A DNA stretch of 64,000 nucleotides from Chitinophaga vietnamensis (GTDB taxonomy: Bacteria; Bacteroidota; Bacteroidia; Chitinophagales; Chitinophagaceae), in NCBI RefSeq assembly GCF_902167635.1, contig NZ_CABHMS010000005.1, positions 124,001 to 188,000 of the forward strand. Direction: 5' to 3'. Positions 13,242-63,656 of the stretch are shown in pieces. The position numbers and the translations under genes are program-made. Under the pieces are notes generated by a model that was not told where the DNA came from, made no database searches, and saw only the letters and a program-made list of their open reading frames with translations. Every line of letters starts with the position of its first letter. Within the stretch, counting starts at the first letter, position 1.

Positions 13242-13808
13242 ATGTTTATTGAACCTTCTCTTGCAGGAGGACGAAGAGGTTGGATAGAAGTGATATGCGG
13301 TTCTATGTTCTCCGGTAAAACGGAAGAACTGATCCGCCGCCTGAAACGCGCCCGCATCGCCAATCTCCGGGTGGAGATATTCAAACCCGCTGTGGACACG
13401 CGTTACGACGAACAGAGCATTGTATCGCACGATGAAAATAAAATTATCTCTACCCCCTTGGAAAACTCGCAGCAGATATTGTTGCTGGCACAGGAGGTAG
13501 ATGTTGTGGGGATCGATGAAGCGCAGTTCTTTGATGGAGAGCTGCCCAATGTGTGCGACCAGCTGGCCTTGCGCGGCATCCGCGTAATCGTTGCCGGCCT
13601 TGACATGGACTATACCGGCAAACCTTTCGGCCAGATGCCTTTCCTGCTGGCAAAGGCGGATTATATCACCAAACTACACGCTATCTGCGTGAAATGCGGT
13701 CACATCGCCAATTATTCCTACCGTAAATCATCTACAAAAGATACCCTGCTACTCGGCGAAAAAGACCTCTACGAGCCGCGTTGCAGACATTGTTATTTTG
13801 AAATTTAG
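13242..13808 (+). CDS. tdk: Thymidine kinase
   Basis: The product phosphorylates thymidine for nucleotide salvage. The 188-residue type II enzyme has the P-loop GSMFSGKT, the Walker B-like [10 protein letters not shown], and the [12 protein letters not shown] substrate lid. A structural zinc site is formed by CVKC and CRHC near the C-terminus. Its TAG stop lies inside the left end of the inverted repeat at 13803-13908. Confidence 0.96.
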
Positions 13809-13908
13809 GGATGTGAGAATGTGAGAATTTACGGATTTACGGATTTACGAATTTACAAATCCCTAAATCCCTAAATTCGTAAATTCTCACATTCTTACAT
13901 CCCTAAAT
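13803..13908. repeat. AT-rich modular inverted repeat at convergent gene ends
   Basis: Both ends read ATTTAGGGATGT facing inwards, and the arms (roughly 50 bases each) pair imperfectly through repeated modules such as GTGAGAATTTACG and GGATTTA. The outer ends supply the TAG stop codons of both convergent neighbours, tdk and the GtrA gene. No other hairpin terminator is present here, so it probably ends transcription from both sides. It belongs to a family seen again at 29344, 49459, 57055 and 61748. Confidence 0.8.
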
Positions 13909-28732: not shown

Positions 28733-29344
28733 ATGAAGATTATTTGCGTAGGTAGAAACTATGCCGAGCATGCCAAGGAATTAAAGAATGAAATACCAGC
28801 AGCGCCTGTAGTGTTCATGAAACCCAAGAACGCCTTGCTGCAAAATAACCATCCGTTCTATTACCCCGAGTTCACCACCAACCTGCACTACGAGTGCGAA
28901 CTGGTGCTGCGGGTGAGCAAGAATGGCAAGCATGTACAGGAAAAATTTGCAGATAAATACTATGATCAGCTATCTGTAGGGATAGACTTCACCGCACGCG
29001 ATCTTCAGGAACAACAGAAGGCAAAGGGTTTGCCATGGGAAATTGCTAAATCGTTTGATAACTCTGCTATCGTAGGGAAATTCCTGCCTATCACACCAGA
29101 GATGGACCTGGGCAATATCAACTTCAGTTTGTATAAGAACAAAACCCTGGTACAGGAAGGCAATACCAAAGACCTGCTCTTCAATTTCAATCATCTGGTA
29201 TCTTATATCTCCCGTTTTTTTACGCTGAACATCGGCGATCTCATTTATACAGGAACCCCTGCCGGCGTAGGCCCCGCCGAGATTGGCGACAACTTTGAAG
29301 CATTTATTGAGAAGGAAAGCCTGCTGGAGTTCTCTGTGAGATGA
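28733..29344 (+). CDS. Fumarylacetoacetate hydrolase-family protein
   Basis: The 203-residue protein is the short single-domain form of the family, like acylpyruvases and oxaloacetate decarboxylase-type enzymes. Metal ligands are visible as the Glu pair in YECEL and the Asp in GIDFTARD. The segment PWEIAKSFDNSAIVG and the closing YTGTPAGVGP are diagnostic. The substrate cannot be read from the sequence. Its TGA stop touches the left end of the inverted repeat at 29344. Confidence 0.88.
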   Translation: MKIICVGRNYAEHAKELKNEIPAAPVVFMKPKNALLQNNHPFYYPEFTTNLHYECELVLRVSKNGKHVQEKFADKYYDQLSVGIDFTARDLQEQQKAKGLPWEIAKSFDNSAIVGKFLPITPEMDLGNINFSLYKNKTLVQEGNTKDLLFNFNHLVSYISRFFTLNIGDLIYTGTPAGVGPAEIGDNFEAFIEKESLLEFSVR

Positions 29345-29435
29345 TTTACGAATTTTTTGATTTACGGATTTGGGGATTTGGGCTATTAAGCCCGATACTA
29401 AATCCGAAAATCTGTAAATCAAAAAATCCCTAAAT
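29344..29435. repeat. AT-rich modular inverted repeat at convergent gene ends
   Basis: The outer parts (ATTTACGAATTTTTTGATTT on the left, complement of ATTTAGGGATTTTTTGATTT on the right) pair with a few mismatches. The centre closes on a small GGGCT/AGCCC hairpin. The 15-mer TTGATTTACGGATTT is present at 29357. The element fills the gap between the stop codons of the FAH gene and marR, touching both. It is likely the terminator for both genes. Confidence 0.75.
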
Positions 29436-29881
29436 TATTTACCTGGAACATTACTATAAATCGTATCAAGTATCCTGGTGAGTTCTGCGTAATCGGCTTC
29501 TGTGAGGCCTTTCCAGCCAATCTTGCGCATGTCGTGCACCAGGGGTTTCACATCTTTGTATTTTTCCGTACCCTCGGGTGTGAGCTGTAAATATACTTTA
29601 CGGCGGTCGATACTATCGGCCTCTCTCTTCACCAATCCCTTCTTTACCAGCAATTCAATGATGCGGGAAATGGTGGTAATATCCTTGGAGGTATTACGCG
29701 CCAGCTCGTTGTGGGTTGTTTTCTTGTGCTTGTACAGATTTTCTATCAATAACCATTGATCTACGGTGATGTCTTTTTGTTGGGCATCGAACATCTTCTG
29801 CCAATAATTACGCAATTTTTTAAGGGTAGCATCCAGCTTAAAAAAAGATGGATTACTGACGAAAGTATCAGTCATATTCAT
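29435..29881 (-). CDS. MarR-family transcriptional regulator
   Basis: This 148-residue winged-helix regulator has the recognition region ELARNTSKDITTISRIIELL. The wing follows in GLVKREADSIDRRKVYLQLT, where the DRR motif is typical of MarR. It is transcribed away from the fused E1 gene, and a palindrome suited to MarR binding lies between them. It probably represses itself and the E1 gene, with a small ligand as the release signal. The ligand is unknown. Confidence 0.92.
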   Translation of the reverse strand: MNMTDTFVSNPSFFKLDATLKKLRNYWQKMFDAQQKDITVDQWLLIENLYKHKKTTHNELARNTSKDITTISRIIELLVKKGLVKREADSIDRRKVYLQLTPEGTEKYKDVKPLVHDMRKIGWKGLTEADYAELTRILDTIYSNVPGK

Positions 29882-47884: not shown

Positions 47885-49459
47885 ATGAAGCGTAACATAA
47901 TCAACAAAACGATGCTGCTGGCCCTGGGAGGCGCGCTGATGCTGGGTATGGGCACCGGATGTTCCAAGTTCCTGAAAGAGAACGACCCGTCCAACCTCTC
48001 GCCCGACAGCTATTTCACCTTGCCTGAACATGCCGATGCTGCCGTGTTTGCAGCCTATGCACGTACCCGCGTGATCGGTGAAGGCGCCGGTATCTTCTCC
48101 AATAACTTCCAGATGCTGGACGCCCCTACCGGTACCGCTATCACCGGTACTGCGCAGAACTCCGATCTCAATAACCTCCTCGGCCTGGTATACAATGGCG
48201 ATAACCTGCATGTAGGACAGTGGTGGAGAGGGCTCTACAAAGAGATCGCACAGTGTAACCTCACGCTCGATAAAGTACCTGGCATCAACCCGATGGACAG
48301 TGCGCAAAAGAAGCGCGTGCTCGGCGAAGCCAGCTTCCTCCGCGCCTGGGCTTATTTTTATGCAGTAAGGTTATGGGGAGATATTCCACTGATCCTGAAA
48401 TCACAAACAGCATCTTCGCCTGATTTCTTCCCTTCCCGCACGAAAACAGAAGACGTTTATAATGCCATCGTGCAGGACCTGAAGAATGCAGAAGCCGCAG
48501 GCCTCAACTGGACGGACGCCTCCGGCCGCGTAGGCCTCGCCGCTATCAAAACACAGCTGGCGAAAGTATATCTCACCATGGCTGGATTCCCGCTCAACAA
48601 AGGCGCCGCTTATTACAAACTGGCGGCCGACAAAGCCAAGGAAGTGATCGACTATGCAGAAGCACATCCCTCAGAGATAGGCCTGTTCCCGGATTACGCC
48701 AGTTTGCACACCACAGCGATGAACAACAAACTGGAACATCTCTTTGAAGTGCAATACCTGAGCGGCGTAGAAGAGAACCCGCTGCAATCGATCATGCTGC
48801 CCAACAACTCCCTTGCACAGGATATATCCGCGAAAGGCAGTGGCGTAGGCAGTTCCATGCCCTCTCAATCTTTCTACAATTCTTTCAAAAAGTTTGAGCC
48901 TACGGACAAACGTACGGATGAACAACAGTTCTTCTTTACCTCTTATTACGTAAAAGGCAACGGTGCACCGTTTCCGCTCGGCGCTCCTTACATCTTCAAA
49001 CATTTTGACGTAGAAGCGCATGGCGCTCCCGGCAAGCCCGGCACTGCTATCAGCAACCTGAACGTACCACAGATACGTTATGCTGAAACGCTGCTCATCT
49101 ATGCGGAAGCAGAGAACCGTGCAGACGGATCGCCCAATGCAGCCGCTTACAAAGCGCTCAACGCGGTACGCGCACGCGCCGGAAACCCTGCACTGGCGGG
49201 CCTCAGCCAAACCGACTTTGAAACCTATGTTTGGCGTGAGCGCTGGCATGAGTTCTGTTATGAAGGCATCATCTGGTTCGACATGGTGCGCCTGCAGAAA
49301 GTATATAATGAAGATACCAATGGCTTCGATGCTTTCATTGGCCACATCAACAAAAACTCCGGACAGGCATTACAAAAGAAACACCTGCTGTTTCCGCTGC
49401 CTACTTCAGAAATGAAGAACAATCCGAAACTGATACCACAGAACGAAGGCTATAATTGA
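47885..49459 (+). CDS. SusD/RagB-family outer-membrane lipoprotein
   Basis: The 524-residue lipoprotein has its signal peptide Cys in GTGCSKFLK. Helical SusD features include LGEASFLRAWAYFYAVRLWGDIPL, the PQIRYAETLLIYAEAENR segment and the final WHEFCYEGIIWFDMVRL. It pairs with the SusC upstream and ends the operon. No enzyme gene follows, so the locus gives no clue to the ligand. The TGA stop ends at the first base of the inverted repeat at 49459. Confidence 0.93.
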   Translation: MKRNIINKTMLLALGGALMLGMGTGCSKFLKENDPSNLSPDSYFTLPEHADAAVFAAYARTRVIGEGAGIFSNNFQMLDAPTGTAITGTAQNSDLNNLLGLVYNGDNLHVGQWWRGLYKEIAQCNLTLDKVPGINPMDSAQKKRVLGEASFLRAWAYFYAVRLWGDIPLILKSQTASSPDFFPSRTKTEDVYNAIVQDLKNAEAAGLNWTDASGRVGLAAIKTQLAKVYLTMAGFPLNKGAAYYKLAADKAKEVIDYAEAHPSEIGLFPDYASLHTTAMNNKLEHLFEVQYLSGVEENPLQSIMLPNNSLAQDISAKGSGVGSSMPSQSFYNSFKKFEPTDKRTDEQQFFFTSYYVKGNGAPFPLGAPYIFKHFDVEAHGAPGKPGTAISNLNVPQIRYAETLLIYAEAENRADGSPNAAAYKALNAVRARAGNPALAGLSQTDFETYVWRERWHEFCYEGIIWFDMVRLQKVYNEDTNGFDAFIGHINKNSGQALQKKHLLFPLPTSEMKNNPKLIPQNEGYN

Positions 49460-49553
49460 TTTAGGGATTTCTTGATTTACGGATTTATGGATTTGGGGCG
49501 GCCTTCAGGTTCGCCCCAAATTCGTAAATCCGTAAATCAAAAAATCCCTAAAT
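49459..49553. repeat. 42-bp-arm inverted repeat at convergent gene ends
   Basis: Arms at 49459-49500 and 49512-49553 pair with only three mismatches, two of which are G-U wobbles in RNA, around an 11-base loop. Both ends read ATTTAGGGATTT inwards, and TTGATTTACGGATTT is at 49472. The arms close on a GGGGCG/CGCCCC clamp. The element bridges the SusD stop and the stop codon of the convergent sigma gene. No other terminator lies here. Confidence 0.85.
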
Positions 49554-56881: not shown

Positions 56882-56892
56882 TTGCTACAAAC

Positions 56893-56926
56893 AAAAAGTC
56901 CTGAACGTTTACGTTCAGGACTTTTT
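56893..56926. terminator. Bidirectional intrinsic terminator
   Basis: AAAAAGTCCTGAACG and its exact complement give a 15-bp stem with a TTTA loop and A/T tracts on both sides. It ends the SusD transcript and, on the minus strand, the tRNA transcript 6 bases away. Confidence 0.92.
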
Positions 56927-56931
56927 ATTTG

Positions 56932-57003
<72 letters not shown>

Positions 57004-57054: not shown

Positions 57055-57202
57055 CTCAGGATTAAATGATTGAAAGGATTAGCAGGATTTTTTTATCAGG
57101 ATTTTAAAGGATTCGCGAAGATCACCTTGATTTGATCTTCGCGAATCCTTTAAAATCCTGATAAAAAAATCCTGCTAATCCTTTCAATCATTTAATCCTG
57201 AG
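57055..57202. repeat. Perfect 70-bp-arm inverted repeat
   Basis: The arm at 57055-57124 is matched without any mismatch by 57133-57202, around an 8-base loop. The outer ends read CTCAGGATTAAATGATTG inwards; inner modules include AGGATTAGCAGGATT and AAAGGATTCGCGAAGATC. It lies 6 bases past the stop of the NIPSNAP gene and 51 bases upstream of the tRNA. Its outer 37 bases match the element at 61748 except at two positions. Confidence 0.95.
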
Positions 57203-57208
57203 TCCTCA

Positions 57209-57979
57209 TCAGATGTCGGAGTATTCCACCGGGCGGAGGAAGAGGATATCTGAGTGAGAGACGTTGTGGCTATATTCCTGCATGCCTTGAAGCTGCTTCC
57301 AGTCGGGATTGGCGGAGAAGGCTTTCCAGTGGGCATCGCGGTCGGCGCGGCTGTTGAAGGTGGTGAGGTACATGAGGTTGGGCATTTTGCTGCCTGCCAG
57401 TACGGAGCCGTAAAATACAGGATTGAATGCCAGCTTGTCGAAAATGCCTACTTCGTTACCATCGTTGAACATCTTCACTTTGTTGACGTGATATTGTTCT
57501 GTAGGGCTTTCATAACTGCGCAGTTCGTATACGCGTTCGGCTTTGGGAGCGCTGAGCGCAGGCAATGTGAGCTGCGGCCGCTTTTCAAATGCCAGCAGCA
57601 GGATGGATTCTATGCGGTTGTAGGCCGACTGGTTGTAAGCTGCATCCAGAAAGCCCGCGCCAGCGGATTGATATTGTTTGTCGCGTTCCAGTATAGCGGG
57701 CAGGTTGGAGAATTGTTCCAGCGTGCGGAAAGGCACGAGCACGTATATACGAAGATCGGCCGTGTCCTGGTCTATCGGTTTGAAAACGCCTACCTGTGCG
57801 ATACCCGCCCGATGCAATGCAGGCAGGTAGGCCCTTTGCAGGAAACTATCGGTACGTGCTTCCTGACCGGCTTTCAGGTGAAATATCCTGATCTGGTAAT
57901 ATTGACGCGTGCCTTTGCCGGCTGCGGAAACAGAAAGGCAGGCAAGACAGAAGAGTAATAACATCGTGGAATTTCTCAT
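57209..57979 (-). CDS. NIPSNAP-family exported protein
   Basis: The start at 57979 (MRNSTMLLLFCLACLSVSA) gives a signal peptide and a 256-residue product; the longer open frame overlaps the next gene. Two NIPSNAP-like ferredoxin-fold repeats are seen, beginning YYQIRIFHLKAGQE and VYELRSYESPTEQYHVNKV. The second ends in LMYLTTFNSRADRDAHWKAF. Function in bacteria is not established. It lies divergent from the lipoprotein gene at 58048, and its stop is just before the palindrome at 57055-57202. Confidence 0.85.
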   Translation of the reverse strand: MRNSTMLLLFCLACLSVSAAGKGTRQYYQIRIFHLKAGQEARTDSFLQRAYLPALHRAGIAQVGVFKPIDQDTADLRIYVLVPFRTLEQFSNLPAILERDKQYQSAGAGFLDAAYNQSAYNRIESILLLAFEKRPQLTLPALSAPKAERVYELRSYESPTEQYHVNKVKMFNDGNEVGIFDKLAFNPVFYGSVLAGSKMPNLMYLTTFNSRADRDAHWKAFSANPDWKQLQGMQEYSHNVSHSDILFLRPVEYSDI

Positions 57980-58047
57980 CGCAAAAAATTTTTTGACAAG
58001 ACAATGTAGTGTAAAAAAATCAGGTTTTATAGTTATATCTTGCGCCC

Positions 58048-58749
58048 ATGAAATTGCATATATTGTTTGTAGTTCCCTTATTCCTGCTGGCTTGCCAGTC
58101 GGGCAGCAGGCCCTCAACAACGGCGCCTGTAAAGGATTCCCTGGTAAGCGATACTGTCAAAGTCGCCACCGCACAACCCGCAGCAGCTACCGCCGTTCCC
58201 GAAGATTCTGTAATGACCGCCAGCTGTCCTGAATTTTCCCTGGAAATACATGGCATGAGCAATGACGTGCCCTCCGCATGGGGACATGATACATTGATAC
58301 TGTCTGCCGGCCTGGGCGAAATGTTGGACGGATGCAAGGTGATCGTTCAAAGCACACAGCTCGATGATATCACCGTAGAACAGTGCTATGAAACCAGCAT
58401 CACCATTCAGCAGGAAGGCCCGCACTGGGACCTTACCGACTGGAAACATTATACTTCACCCTGGGCCAAACTGCCAACATCCGGCCCGGGCAAGTTCACG
58501 GCCATTACCTATGAAGTAACAGAGCATGCGCCCTTTCCCCAAGTGAGCATGGAAGAACTGAAGGCTGAACTGAAGCGCGGCGGCCTTGATGAGCAATGGA
58601 TCAAAGCCGTTGATACCGTTAAATCTATCTACGATTACCCGGTAGCAGTAGGCATCAGCCGCTATTACCTTCGCGTGAGCGGCAAGCAGAAAAGCACCGG
58701 TAAAACAGTAGTAAGGATCGTTGCTATCGATATGCCGATGGGTTGTTAG
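58048..58749 (+). CDS. Hypothetical lipoprotein
   Basis: The 233-residue protein has a lipoprotein signal with the Cys in LLACQSGS. A Ser/Thr/Ala/Val-rich linker (about 20-60) and a compact C-terminal domain follow, the domain with three cysteines (ASCPEF, DGCKV, EQCYE). I do not recognise the family. The divergent promoter region with the NIPSNAP gene is short (68 bases). Its last 26 bases overlap the end of the convergent gene at 58724. Confidence 0.75.
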   Translation: MKLHILFVVPLFLLACQSGSRPSTTAPVKDSLVSDTVKVATAQPAAATAVPEDSVMTASCPEFSLEIHGMSNDVPSAWGHDTLILSAGLGEMLDGCKVIVQSTQLDDITVEQCYETSITIQQEGPHWDLTDWKHYTSPWAKLPTSGPGKFTAITYEVTEHAPFPQVSMEELKAELKRGGLDEQWIKAVDTVKSIYDYPVAVGISRYYLRVSGKQKSTGKTVVRIVAIDMPMGC

Positions 58750-60615: not shown

Positions 60616-61722
60616 ATGTACCAGGATGCAGAATTATTGATAGAAGTGACCAACAGCCGTGGCACCTTATACGCGATAGTAGAGCAGGATAACCGTACCG
60701 CCTATTTTTATCTTTATCCTTCCGAGTTGATGGGCAACCGCTTCAAGCCGCGTCCCTGCTGGCTGCGCAATCTTCAGCCTGCCCCTCAGCAAAAAGATAC
60801 CGCAGCGATGGACAATGGCGTAGCGCCCATGCTGGAAGCGCGATACTGCAATCATCCGCAAGGGAAGGAGCCTTTGCAGAAAGAACGTATTTCTTTCGTC
60901 TGGAATGAAGAAGAAGATGGCGCCGCTATGTTATATGATGGCGCAATCATGGGCGTAATCCCCGGATGGGCGCTGTATGCTGATCAGCCGGTGGCCTATG
61001 CTGCTGATTGTATCGACGGCGAAGATGGACTCATGTTCCCCTTGGGTACGCCCGCTACCAACCAGCAATATAGCCGGTTTCAGCAGGCAATGGATTTCTG
61101 GAAGGAATGGGATAACAAAGAGAGCCAGCCTTGGAGCCGGATACAGCAACAGTTCCTGTCTGCCTACGAAAAACATTTCGGACCTACGCAACAATACTTC
61201 GCGATAGATGACGGCAAATGGCCGCCCATGGCCCTCGCCAAGTATGACACAGAAGATATCACCTATTTCTTGTCGCTGGGTATGAGCATCCGGCCGATGC
61301 CCTGGGTAGAGATGTTGTACAACGATAACGCATCGGGTTTCCGTCGTGCCGAGCTGGCCATTGCGATGAGCAAGAAAGATTTTTCTGAAGAAGAGATCAT
61401 GAAAGTAGCACAGCTGCTCTCCGGCCTGGCCGACCGTCCCTGGAAGCTCATCACCTGGCTGGGAGAAGGCCATACCATTGCTTCTTCCGCCTTACCCAAA
61501 GGCTATGAAAGCCTGATCCTTTCTGCCGCCATCTACAATGGCCCGGTGATCGATATGCCGGAAATGTATGGCGATAAAGTAAACCTCTACTGGGGTTCCC
61601 CCCTTACCTTCGAAGAGCGCGAATTCGCGCACAGCCGCCCCAATGGCGGTTATGAACTACTGGAATTGATGATCAATAAAGGAATTACGCACATCGTAAA
61701 ACGACGCGGGGCGGTGGTTTGA
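60616..61722 (+). CDS. Suppressor-of-fused (SUFU)-like domain protein
   Basis: The 368-residue cytoplasmic protein has a variable N-terminal half and a C-terminal SUFU-like domain. Its hallmarks are KWPPMALAKYDTEDITYFLSL-type strands, GMSIRPMPWVE, WLGEGHTIASS and YNGPVIDMPEMYG. Bacterial SUFU proteins are often immunity proteins against secreted toxins, but no toxin gene is next to this one. It is the last gene before the 85-bp-arm palindrome. Confidence 0.75.
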   Translation: MYQDAELLIEVTNSRGTLYAIVEQDNRTAYFYLYPSELMGNRFKPRPCWLRNLQPAPQQKDTAAMDNGVAPMLEARYCNHPQGKEPLQKERISFVWNEEEDGAAMLYDGAIMGVIPGWALYADQPVAYAADCIDGEDGLMFPLGTPATNQQYSRFQQAMDFWKEWDNKESQPWSRIQQQFLSAYEKHFGPTQQYFAIDDGKWPPMALAKYDTEDITYFLSLGMSIRPMPWVEMLYNDNASGFRRAELAIAMSKKDFSEEEIMKVAQLLSGLADRPWKLITWLGEGHTIASSALPKGYESLILSAAIYNGPVIDMPEMYGDKVNLYWGSPLTFEEREFAHSRPNGGYELLELMINKGITHIVKRRGAVV

Positions 61723-61747
61723 TGCTCGCTTCGCTCGCATTAATTTG

Positions 61748-61927
61748 GCTCAGGATTGAATGATTGAAAGGATTACCAGGATTTTCGAATTTATTGATTT
61801 TCGGATTTATTGATTTAATTAAAACGGAGATGAACAATTTGCCATCTCCGTTTTAATTAAATCAATAAATCCGAAAATCAATAAATTCGAAAATCCTGGT
61901 AATCCTTTCAATCATTCAATCCTGAGC
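61748..61927. repeat. Perfect 85-bp-arm inverted repeat
   Basis: The arm at 61748-61832 pairs without mismatch with 61843-61927, around a 10-base loop. The outer end is GCTCAGGATTGAATGATTG; inner modules include TTTATTGATTTTCGGATT and a final AAAACGGAGATG. It fills the gap between the convergent SUFU gene and PKD-like gene. Apart from its shared end with the element at 57055, the inner half is different sequence. Confidence 0.95.
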
Positions 61928-62009
61928 TAAAAGGGCCGCGCAGTTGCGCAGCCCCTCATCGTTGGCGTTAACACAGGATAACAATGGATGTGTATGGTGG
62001 TTCGTGATC

Positions 62010-63656
62010 TTATCTTTCTCTGTACGATACGCTGACGATCTTTCCAAACCCGCTGTATTCCTGCTTTTTCACGAGTGCGGCGTGTTGCGATAGGAAGTCT
62101 TGCGGGGAATAGAAGGTGAGCGTGCCGTTGCTGGCAGTGGGTTGGGCGGGATCGTAGGTAGCCACGCCCAGCCAGCTGCCGGGGTAATTGTCTAATGAGC
62201 CGCTCCCCTGCGGATTGTTGTAAGTGTAGCCGTTCACGTAGCCGCCGCGGGAGGGCCCATAGCCTTTGTTCACTGTAAATAGATGCTGGTCGAGCCAGGA
62301 TATTTTTTTGTTGCCTGCATCCAGTACCTGGTAGCATACGCCGGGGAAGTCTTTGTTCATGGCGTATACTTTGCTGCCAACGGAATAGTAGATGGTGCCG
62401 TAGTTTTTATCGACGGTGAAATGCTCTGCTTTTGATATATCCGTTCCCGTTAGTTTCACTTTTCTGTCTTGTGTTACCGAGGACCTTACATCGAAAGTGA
62501 GGAGCCAGGTATCGCCGGCGGCGTCTTTCATAATGGCGAAAGTAAGGTCGAGGCCGGGTACGGAGCGCATCCAGCGCAGGTCCATGCCGGTATTGGAGAA
62601 GTCGAACAAGGGACTGTCGGGATTGGGAATGATATTGCAGGTGCTGCTGCCGGGCGTGGAAAGCAGGAAACGCTTTTTGTCCATATCGAAGAGTACGGAA
62701 TTATAGAAGAAAGCCATGCCGTAGTTTCTGCCCAGGAAGGGCGCAGCCCTGAAATTTCCTTCTCCTGAAACTTTATTCATATTGGTAACGTACCACTGGT
62801 AGGGATCACGTTCATAGAAATTGCCTTTGTTGTCGTAAACATATACATAGTCGCTGCTGGCGGCGCCTTCGTTGGCGCCCACGAAGCCAGGGAGGAAGGT
62901 GGCGCTGTCGGGCCTTGAGATGAACTCTTTGGAAGTGTACCAGGCGCCGGAGGTGTATAGGTAGTCGTTGCGCAGCTTCCAGCTGCCTTTGTCGGTGCAG
63001 AGGTAGATCCATTCCCTGTCGACCAGCGATACTGCCGGGTTGTGATACGGTGGCGGCGCGGCATTGGGCCTGCCGGTAGCATAGTATGCGATATAGCGCG
63101 GGCCTTTCAGAGGCTTGGGAAGATCGGGAGAAAGCGACAGGATATCACGGGTGAAACGGGTGTTGCCGTTCACGAAGTTCACCATATCCAGGCGGGTATT
63201 ACCATCTACATCACATAACACCATCCAGCCTTCGTAGGTGGATGAACCTATTACGAGCTGGGAGGTATACCTGGTGAAGACCTGCCCGGTCTTTTTATCG
63301 GTCATCTCGAAATACAATCCGTAGCTGCCTACGGCATTGGTAACACGGGCATTGAGGTTGCGGTCATAGCTGAGTATCGTGCCTTTTACATAAGAGGAGC
63401 CATTGCCGCCGATAGTCCACTGATAGGCGAAGCGCGCGGTATCATTGAGGATAGACGAATCGAGGGTGGCCGATATTTTCGGCGTGAGCCGCAAGGTATC
63501 GAACTGATATACGAAGATAGAAGATGGAAAAGTATCGATGACCACTTTATTCACATCTTTATAAGCGTAGTTGCCGAGATCTTTATAGCAGGAGCTGAAG
63601 AGCAGGGAAGCGCTTCCTGATGCCAGCAGCAATATATTTTTTATGGTGCGTTTCAT
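62010..63656 (-). CDS. PKD-like family lipoprotein
   Basis: The 548-residue exported protein has the lipobox Cys in LFSSCYKDLG. An N-terminal Ig/PKD-like domain (about 35-135, FAYQWTIGGNGSSYVKG) is followed by a beta-propeller-like body with repeated strand patterns (YEGWMVLCDVDGNTRLDM). This family sits with SusC/SusD pairs and a DUF4843 lipoprotein in Bacteroidota. The next gene on the right looks like that DUF4843 protein, so this is the last gene of a locus that begins beyond the window. Confidence 0.85.
   Translation of the reverse strand: MKRTIKNILLLASGSASLLFSSCYKDLGNYAYKDVNKVVIDTFPSSIFVYQFDTLRLTPKISATLDSSILNDTARFAYQWTIGGNGSSYVKGTILSYDRNLNARVTNAVGSYGLYFEMTDKKTGQVFTRYTSQLVIGSSTYEGWMVLCDVDGNTRLDMVNFVNGNTRFTRDILSLSPDLPKPLKGPRYIAYYATGRPNAAPPPYHNPAVSLVDREWIYLCTDKGSWKLRNDYLYTSGAWYTSKEFISRPDSATFLPGFVGANEGAASSDYVYVYDNKGNFYERDPYQWYVTNMNKVSGEGNFRAAPFLGRNYGMAFFYNSVLFDMDKKRFLLSTPGSSTCNIIPNPDSPLFDFSNTGMDLRWMRSVPGLDLTFAIMKDAAGDTWLLTFDVRSSVTQDRKVKLTGTDISKAEHFTVDKNYGTIYYSVGSKVYAMNKDFPGVCYQVLDAGNKKISWLDQHLFTVNKGYGPSRGGYVNGYTYNNPQGSGSLDNYPGSWLGVATYDPAQPTASNGTLTFYSPQDFLSQHAALVKKQEYSGFGKIVSVSYRER

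Follow-up and report, generated by a model that had tools for sequence, protein, structure and literature searches.

Long hairpins at gene ends: a genome-wide set of palindromes probably perfected by fold-back copying

Results

Palindromes in the window

The window (the whole stretch of 64,000 nt under analysis, C5:124001-188000 of G000, the source genome of 6.3 Mb in 15 contigs) holds a palindrome at 61748-61927 in which 85/85 arm positions pair around a 10-nt loop, and a second one at 57055-57202 with 70/70 positions paired around an 8-nt loop, whose right-arm edge and the stop codon of gene 57209-58120 are 6 nt apart. If one mismatch is allowed, the former extends to 61744-61931, with 89 nt per arm. 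The features are listed below in coordinates of the window, together with the palindromes of class B found elsewhere in it.

13803-13908, no strand: palindrome of class B (8-nt words) that takes up a convergent gap; 45-nt arms, 3 mismatches
29341-29438, no strand: palindrome of class B, decayed; 85% pairing over 39-nt arms
49459-49553, no strand: palindrome of class B that takes up a convergent gap; 42-nt arms, 3 mismatches
57055-57124, plus strand: perfect 70-nt left arm, second copy of class A
57125-57132, no strand: loop of the second class A copy, 8 nt
57133-57202, minus strand: right arm of the same copy
60616-61722, plus strand: left neighbour gene, 368 aa; stop codon 25 nt from palindrome 61748-61927
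61748-61832, plus strand: left arm, 85 nt
61749-61785, plus strand: outer module A (CTCAGGATT..CAGGATTTT), common to other copies in the genome
61786-61832, plus strand: class B inner module, in 8-nt words ATTTNNNG, with the core
61833-61842, no strand: 10-nt loop, AACAATTTGC
61843-61927, minus strand: right arm, the exact reverse complement of 61748-61832
62010-63656, minus strand: right neighbour gene, convergent, 548 aa; stop codon 82 nt from palindrome 61748-61927

The original prediction had described a perfect palindrome with 85-nt arms that shares its outer end with the copy at 57055, and both points were borne out. Over the outer 37 nt (61749-61785 against 57055-57091) there are, as it had held, two differences, G/A and C/G, each compensated in the opposite arm so that both copies remain perfectly paired. 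The inner halves differ as well, with a 'GATTTTCGG ATTTATTG' module in one copy and a 'CAGGATTTTAAAGGATTCGCG' module in the other, and the nearest relative of the inner module 61786-61832 in the genome is 95% identical over 118 columns and lacks module A. The 89-nt arm, used as a query, gave 78 matches in the genome at E <=10, and Rfam returned tRNA alone above threshold over the window.

Orthologues of the left gene were found in 25 relatives, in none of which was the right gene seen within the fetched flank, so that the 61748 site is not comparable across species; in the 200 nt after these left-gene orthologues the best hairpin score was 16 (here and below, matches minus 3 per mismatch). By eye, a GC-rich imperfect hairpin at 61933-61955 adjoins the palindrome, is followed by TTTT on the minus strand and resembles an ordinary terminator of the gene at 62010-63656. 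Another hairpin, with 25-nt arms and 1 mismatch (56884-56935), lies between a 605-aa reading frame and tRNA-Met and resembles a bidirectional terminator.

A genome-wide set built of short words

The scanned part of the genome comprised 800 kb (C5 1-520000 and parts of C4) plus the loci of matches, with a loop limit of 60 nt, set at 70 nt in the nearest-copy comparison and at 140 nt in the flank-copy and short-hairpin analyses. A scan of C5 1-520000 without sequence bias found 44 palindromes with a score of at least 20, whereas the maximum was 13 in a single 520-kb sequence simulated from an order-3 Markov model of that contig, which excludes chance. The longest arms on C5 measured 106 nt, and some of the shorter palindromes of the set resemble ordinary terminator hairpins.

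Long arms are made of degenerate words of about 8 nt. Among 60 palindromes with a score of at least 28, identity at lag 8 was 0.447 compared with 0.300 after shuffling (z 20.6), the period appearing also at 16 and 24; by class, B, D and E did best at lag 8 or 16, C at 7 and A at 9. The word classes were named by eye:

Class A words: ..GGCTCAGGATTTAATGATTGAAAGGATTACCAGG..
Class B words: ATTTACGG..
Class C words: AATTACGGATTACG..
Class D words: GCAAAGAA..
Class E words: TTATTTTGATATTTAG..

Class A has an outer end, GCG(A/G)AGGTTGTCT(G/T)GCTCAGG, beyond which the copies have unlike sequence; in 25 flank pairs compared by eye, this common terminal sequence (GCGAAGGTTGTCT-GCTCAGG) is not kept by every copy. 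A strict class A palindrome pattern matched the source genome alone among 79 genomes of the genus. With a 24-nt pattern of class A that left 2 positions free, five stretches were matched in named genomes of other groups (L187-L191, one each in Bacteroidales, Spirosoma, Pelotomaculum, Prevotellaceae and Thiosymbion); no palindrome with a score of at least 14 was found at any of these five matches, and the three palindromes of L190 and L191 lie elsewhere in the locus than the class A match.

Variants of a small hairpin, AGCCCTTGAAGCGCT.., recur mostly at the centres of longer palindromes (G000 C5:301768, C5:380934, C4:246932, C4:275477, C4:604819 and C4:643591). In a relative negative for SbcD, a palindrome with 76-nt arms and 1 mismatch (L040 of G027, 1102-1306) has related words and the outer motif TGTCTGAACCAGGATT. 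Some contigs of G000 end in or beside long palindromes (C2:1-88, C4:44-86, C4:719061-719153), where the assembly probably breaks.

Position at gene ends

Genes were taken from a home-made gene caller, and a palindrome was counted as intergenic by its midpoint, with a tolerance of 40 nt. All 24 palindromes on C5 with a score of at least 30 were intergenic, 12 of them in convergent, 11 in same-direction and 1 in divergent gaps; from intergenic bases, 3.1 convergent ones would be expected (binomial p 1.4e-5). Across the 800 kb, 31/32 palindromes with a score of at least 40 fell within called gaps, C4:604819 being omitted from the gap set as it precedes the first called gap of its block. For these 31 palindromes the distance from stop codon to palindrome edge (41 distances) had a median of 1 nt, with 24 distances within 6 nt, 31 of no more than 10 nt, four above 150 nt, and values down to 34 nt inside a called gene. 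On the start-codon side, 20/21 distances were at least 18 nt. Half of the convergent gaps (6/12) were left with no more than 7 nt besides the palindrome.

Short hairpins were present in 2/19 convergent gaps that hold a palindrome with a score of at least 26, as against 25/52 without one (Fisher p 0.005), and in 0/29 and 33/320 same-direction gaps, respectively, a difference that is not significant (p 0.09). From their scarcity in the convergent gaps we infer that long palindromes replace ordinary terminators; they lie in the terminator position and may carry the terminator function itself. Against such a function, the window copy stands 25 and 82 nt from the two stop codons and has the separate GC-rich hairpin of 61933-61955 as a neighbour. 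In two loci of relatives (L248 of G074 and L244 of G066), the palindrome seems, by eye, to replace the final codons of the adjacent gene and to provide its stop.

Concerted change of arms within copies

The unbiased test of arm concordance is a scan of the 800 kb for single arms of module A, made with no selection for pairing. It found 53 arms, which form 25 facing pairs and leave 3 unpaired, one of the latter at a contig end; the reversed control of the same scan gave no arms. Within copies, the two arms differed at 44/1101 columns (4.0%), 25 of the 44 coming from two decayed or doubtful pairs, whereas copies differed from one another by 14.2%. When partners were shuffled in 10,000 trials, the minimum was 121 differences as against the 44 observed. 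For 16/25 copies no other copy came as close as the own partner; 5/25 were ties, and in 4/25 the partner was not closer.

Among 46 palindromes with arms of at least 45 nt, 29 nearest pairs at 90% identity or more showed 53 mirrored and 18 one-arm substitutions, a count that leaves out 95 central or unalignable differences and in which one-arm changes are biased low, since the copies were chosen for pairing. At orthologous sites of sister species, 13 overlapping pairs gave 17 mirrored, 13 one-arm and 80 other changes, so that in this cluster mirrored changes hardly exceed one-arm ones; one of the mirrored changes spans 3 adjacent bases. The arms within one copy thus change together while copies diverge, which is what the original prediction had maintained: the count that it proposed, of within-copy mismatches against between-copy differences, gave an excess between copies and not arms as divergent as different copies, and mirrored changes are also seen at the orthologous palindromes of sister species.

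As for the mismatches that remain, 25/50 palindromes with arms of at least 40 nt were perfect, and all 50 together had 48 mismatches in 3141 positions (20 G-T, 17 A-C, 11 others). Wobble pairs are thus not clearly favoured over A-C, as would be expected if copying of DNA, and not selection on RNA, keeps the pairing.

The same gene ends in sister species

Three loci, picked because one member had a palindrome, were compared among sister species with 78-93% identity over one compared locus; at the first locus, identity to G074 was 93% for G029, 89% for G101, G100 and G066, and 87% for G011. Both the genus (Chitinophaga) and the labels polA, thiolase, ndh and topA rest on our interpretation of the sequences. 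In two of the three comparisons, a given gene end bears palindromes of unrelated classes in different sister species. At the polA end, 7/12 species have a palindrome with a score of at least 23: G029, G101, G100 and G066 carry class E, G074 has class B, and G030 and G086 have class C. In the remaining five, hairpins are weak or decayed at best. Between G074 (class B) and G029 (class E), the 170-nt flank anchors are 100 and 96% identical. At the thiolase junction, read in 10 species, class B is found in G101, G029, G011 and G030, class E in G066, G100 and G074, and class C in G086 with 53-nt perfect arms, while G065 and, by eye, G091 have a short terminator-like hairpin. At the third locus, where one genome of nine lacked the anchors, every palindrome is of class B, that of G074 being decayed, and G065 and G091 have no palindrome with a score of 12 or more. 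One and the same gene end can therefore bear different palindrome classes, or an ordinary short hairpin, across sister species.

The source genome has a class C palindrome with 69-nt perfect arms at the ndh junction (C5:301768-301947). The genes around it have matches side by side in 16/16 relatives, though partial in G003 and G060, and the junction was read in the other 14 and in the source genome. Arms of 41 nt were found in G086 and of 36 nt in G013, which is positive for SbcD, and short hairpins with scores of 10-23 in 11 others. In G030, arms of 61 nt with 1 mismatch surround a short hairpin. Its right side aligned to the right flank of four sisters with scores of 22, 19, 19 and 22 (shuffle maxima 17-18; z 4.1-5.5), whereas its left side gave no alignment to their left flank (scores 6-10; shuffle maxima 12-13). 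With only the right side aligning, the left arm has the appearance of the right-hand flank copied in inverted form, as template switching would leave it. This is a single case, and it is weak against two of the sisters (19 versus a shuffle maximum of 18).

Spread of whole units

Complete palindromes are duplicated as units too, as some copies have the same asymmetric core. The copies at C1:1084934 and C5:308027 share an identical asymmetric core in opposite orientation and differ by one change that is mirrored (GCGAAG/GCGTAG) and one that is not, and at C4:258992 a 118-nt inner part is 100% identical to a palindrome found elsewhere without module A. Template switching accounts for the arms, but not for class A units reaching new sites.

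A search for transposases of the Y1_Tnp family found a single gene, RAYT-like (L101; G000 C4:222211-222555), which has short repeats of the CGCCCC type all around it; these are unrelated to the long palindromes, and class A copies come no nearer than about 6.0 and 6.6 kb. A link to RAYT was rejected, as this gene has short repeats of its own. No target-site duplication was noticed by eye in the 25 class A flank pairs. Carriage on plasmids or phages was likewise rejected, given that arm 57055-57124 had no match in plasmid records and arm 61748-61832 none in phage records. At G000 C4:634765-638454, an apparent class A palindrome occurs as two facing halves, separated by 3.7 kb with reading frames of 877 and 123 aa in between; the halves agree by eye over their outer 43 nt.

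SbcD in the genus

In E. coli, SbcCD acts on the hairpins that long palindromes form, and its SbcD is a hairpin-nuclease subunit. A profile search for SbcD was above cut-off in 24/79 genomes of the genus and gave no match over cut-off in 55/79; the source genome had no match. Among 14 control genomes, 13 were matched, 8 of them above cut-off. A class B palindrome pattern was found in 17/79 genomes, with at least 5 matches in 11/79, and gave 253 matches in the source genome with overlapping matches counted apart; the reversed control matched one genome, once per strand. Of the 17 first-match loci, 9 hold a palindrome with a score of at least 20, G029 and G065, both among the 11, having none of that score there. 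SbcD was undetectable in 11/11 genomes with at least 5 matches, and the SbcD-positive G073 had 2. The association between SbcD absence and the class B pattern had a Fisher p of 0.013 one-sided and 0.029 two-sided, uncorrected for kinship, and the 11 class-B-rich genomes are probably kin to one another.

In 100-kb samples from 16 relatives, palindromes with a score of at least 50 occurred in the SbcD-negative G030 only, and the SbcD-positive G007, G064 and G075 had one palindrome each with a score of at least 30. As 7/8 SbcD-negative samples lacked a palindrome of that score, the simple rule that genomes without SbcD have palindromes was rejected. Absence of SbcD may permit such palindromes and is not sufficient for them; a role of SbcD in their persistence is suspected.

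Discussion

The account that we consider likely is that the palindromes of the window belong to a genome-wide set at gene ends, where hairpins at terminator sites are perfected by fold-back (template-switch) copying. A strand under copying would fold at a gene-end hairpin and synthesis would switch template, so that one arm, and sometimes the flank too, would be copied back as its reverse complement. Such copying would erase mismatches and lengthen the arms, and could build new arms around a terminator, and complete palindromes would also be copied to other gene ends. They would persist because they replace ordinary terminators and because, in a lineage without detectable SbcD, long hairpins probably remain uncut. 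The original prediction had favoured hairpin-templated repair or copying over simple duplication of arms; the concordance of the arms supports this, with the limits that complete palindromes are also duplicated as whole units and that only half of the palindromes with arms of at least 40 nt are perfect. It had also spoken of a distinct repeat family with a variable core; as a further limit, the window element is part of a larger gene-end system with several word classes.

A possible though less probable explanation is that mobile palindromic elements, MITE-like or REP-like, insert ready-made at gene ends, their arms agreeing as the copies are young. The common outer end of class A, the two copies that share an asymmetric core in opposite orientations, and the inner palindrome found with and without module A all fit such elements. 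Nevertheless, the mirrored substitutions, in nearest and in orthologous copies, need change inside a copy after its birth, the sole Y1 transposase-like gene found sits among a different short repeat, and the arms compared with plasmid records (one copy) and phage records (the other copy) were unmatched. Selection on RNA hairpins, where single mutations would weaken a terminator or 3' hairpin and compensating ones would follow, seems to us improbable. It would explain the position at gene ends, the paucity of short hairpins in convergent gaps that hold a palindrome and the presence of hairpins at the same place across species. An intrinsic terminator, however, needs far fewer than the 85 to 106 perfect pairs seen here; moreover, G-T mismatches show no clear excess over A-C, mirrored changes outnumber single ones between nearest copies, and one mirrored block covers 3 bases. 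That the palindromes are fold-back artefacts of assembly or library can practically be set aside, for even though some contigs end in or beside palindromes, sequence runs on at both sides of the window copies and palindromes stand at the same sites in several species whose genomes were assembled separately, some of them within one contig.

Perhaps fold-back copying at terminator sites reaches further, and in this clade loss of SbcCD has turned gene-end hairpins into self-perfecting and self-spreading replicators by which terminators are continually rewritten across the genome. Fold-back copying would then keep any palindrome perfect regardless of its sequence, palindromes would lengthen up to the stop codons, and one class would overwrite another. 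We regard this extension as tentative and rather doubtful.

Several known systems resemble these palindromes in part. Inverted-repeat arms that evolve in concert occur in mitochondria of Nematomorpha, with template switching proposed and active maintenance in bacterial genomes cited (PMC6649704), and template switching has been proposed for RNA hairpins as well (PMC8794818). In both, paired changes keep the arms identical and the same copying route is proposed, whereas the present case concerns bacterial chromosomes, gene ends, arms of repeated words and class swaps between sisters. Very long inverted repeats of plasmids undergo symmetric insertions and deletions (PMC13155455), and there too changes in both arms preserve the repeat; those are large and on plasmids, while ours are hairpins at gene ends. 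REP elements lie mainly between same-direction and convergent genes, with dimers inside longer palindromes in A. variabilis (PMC3733652), and some are within 15 nt of stop codons (PMC12306157). They share with our palindromes the intergenic location, the convergent and same-direction gaps and the proximity to gene ends, but measure 20-40 bp (PMC3733652, PMC12306157) as compared with 148 and 180 bp in the window and arms of up to 106 nt here. The RAYT-like gene, too, sits here amid a separate short repeat and not among long palindromes as it would in a REP system with RAYT. A likeness to MITEs, a common terminal sequence, is seen in class A only. Cleavage by SbcCD has been described (PMC3733652); compared with the long palindromes of E. 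coli, the present ones are natural, numerous and found in genomes without detectable SbcD. One inverted-repeat survey covers repeats of 6-30 bp only (PMC10434271).

A parallel in position is the intrinsic bidirectional terminator. Such terminators sit between convergent stop codons, and here as well the hairpin follows directly on the stop codon (median 1 nt), short hairpins of that kind occupying the orthologous site in other species. The stems described here, on the other hand, are much longer, with arms of 8-nt words. In the literature searched, we found no description of this palindrome system, nor of class swapping at fixed gene ends; concerted arms are already known, whereas this scale and the class swapping were found nowhere described.

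Hairpin-templated copying is known mostly from reporters. The dozens of hairpins in the 800 kb scanned would offer a natural, genome-wide record of it, which could show compensated changes arising without selection on RNA, as well as the pace of terminator turnover. Since SbcD is patchy across one genus, the suspected role of this nuclease is testable. The source bacterium and some of its relatives bear long mirror-image hairpins where their genes stop, and copying from a folded strand is suggested as the process that writes them.
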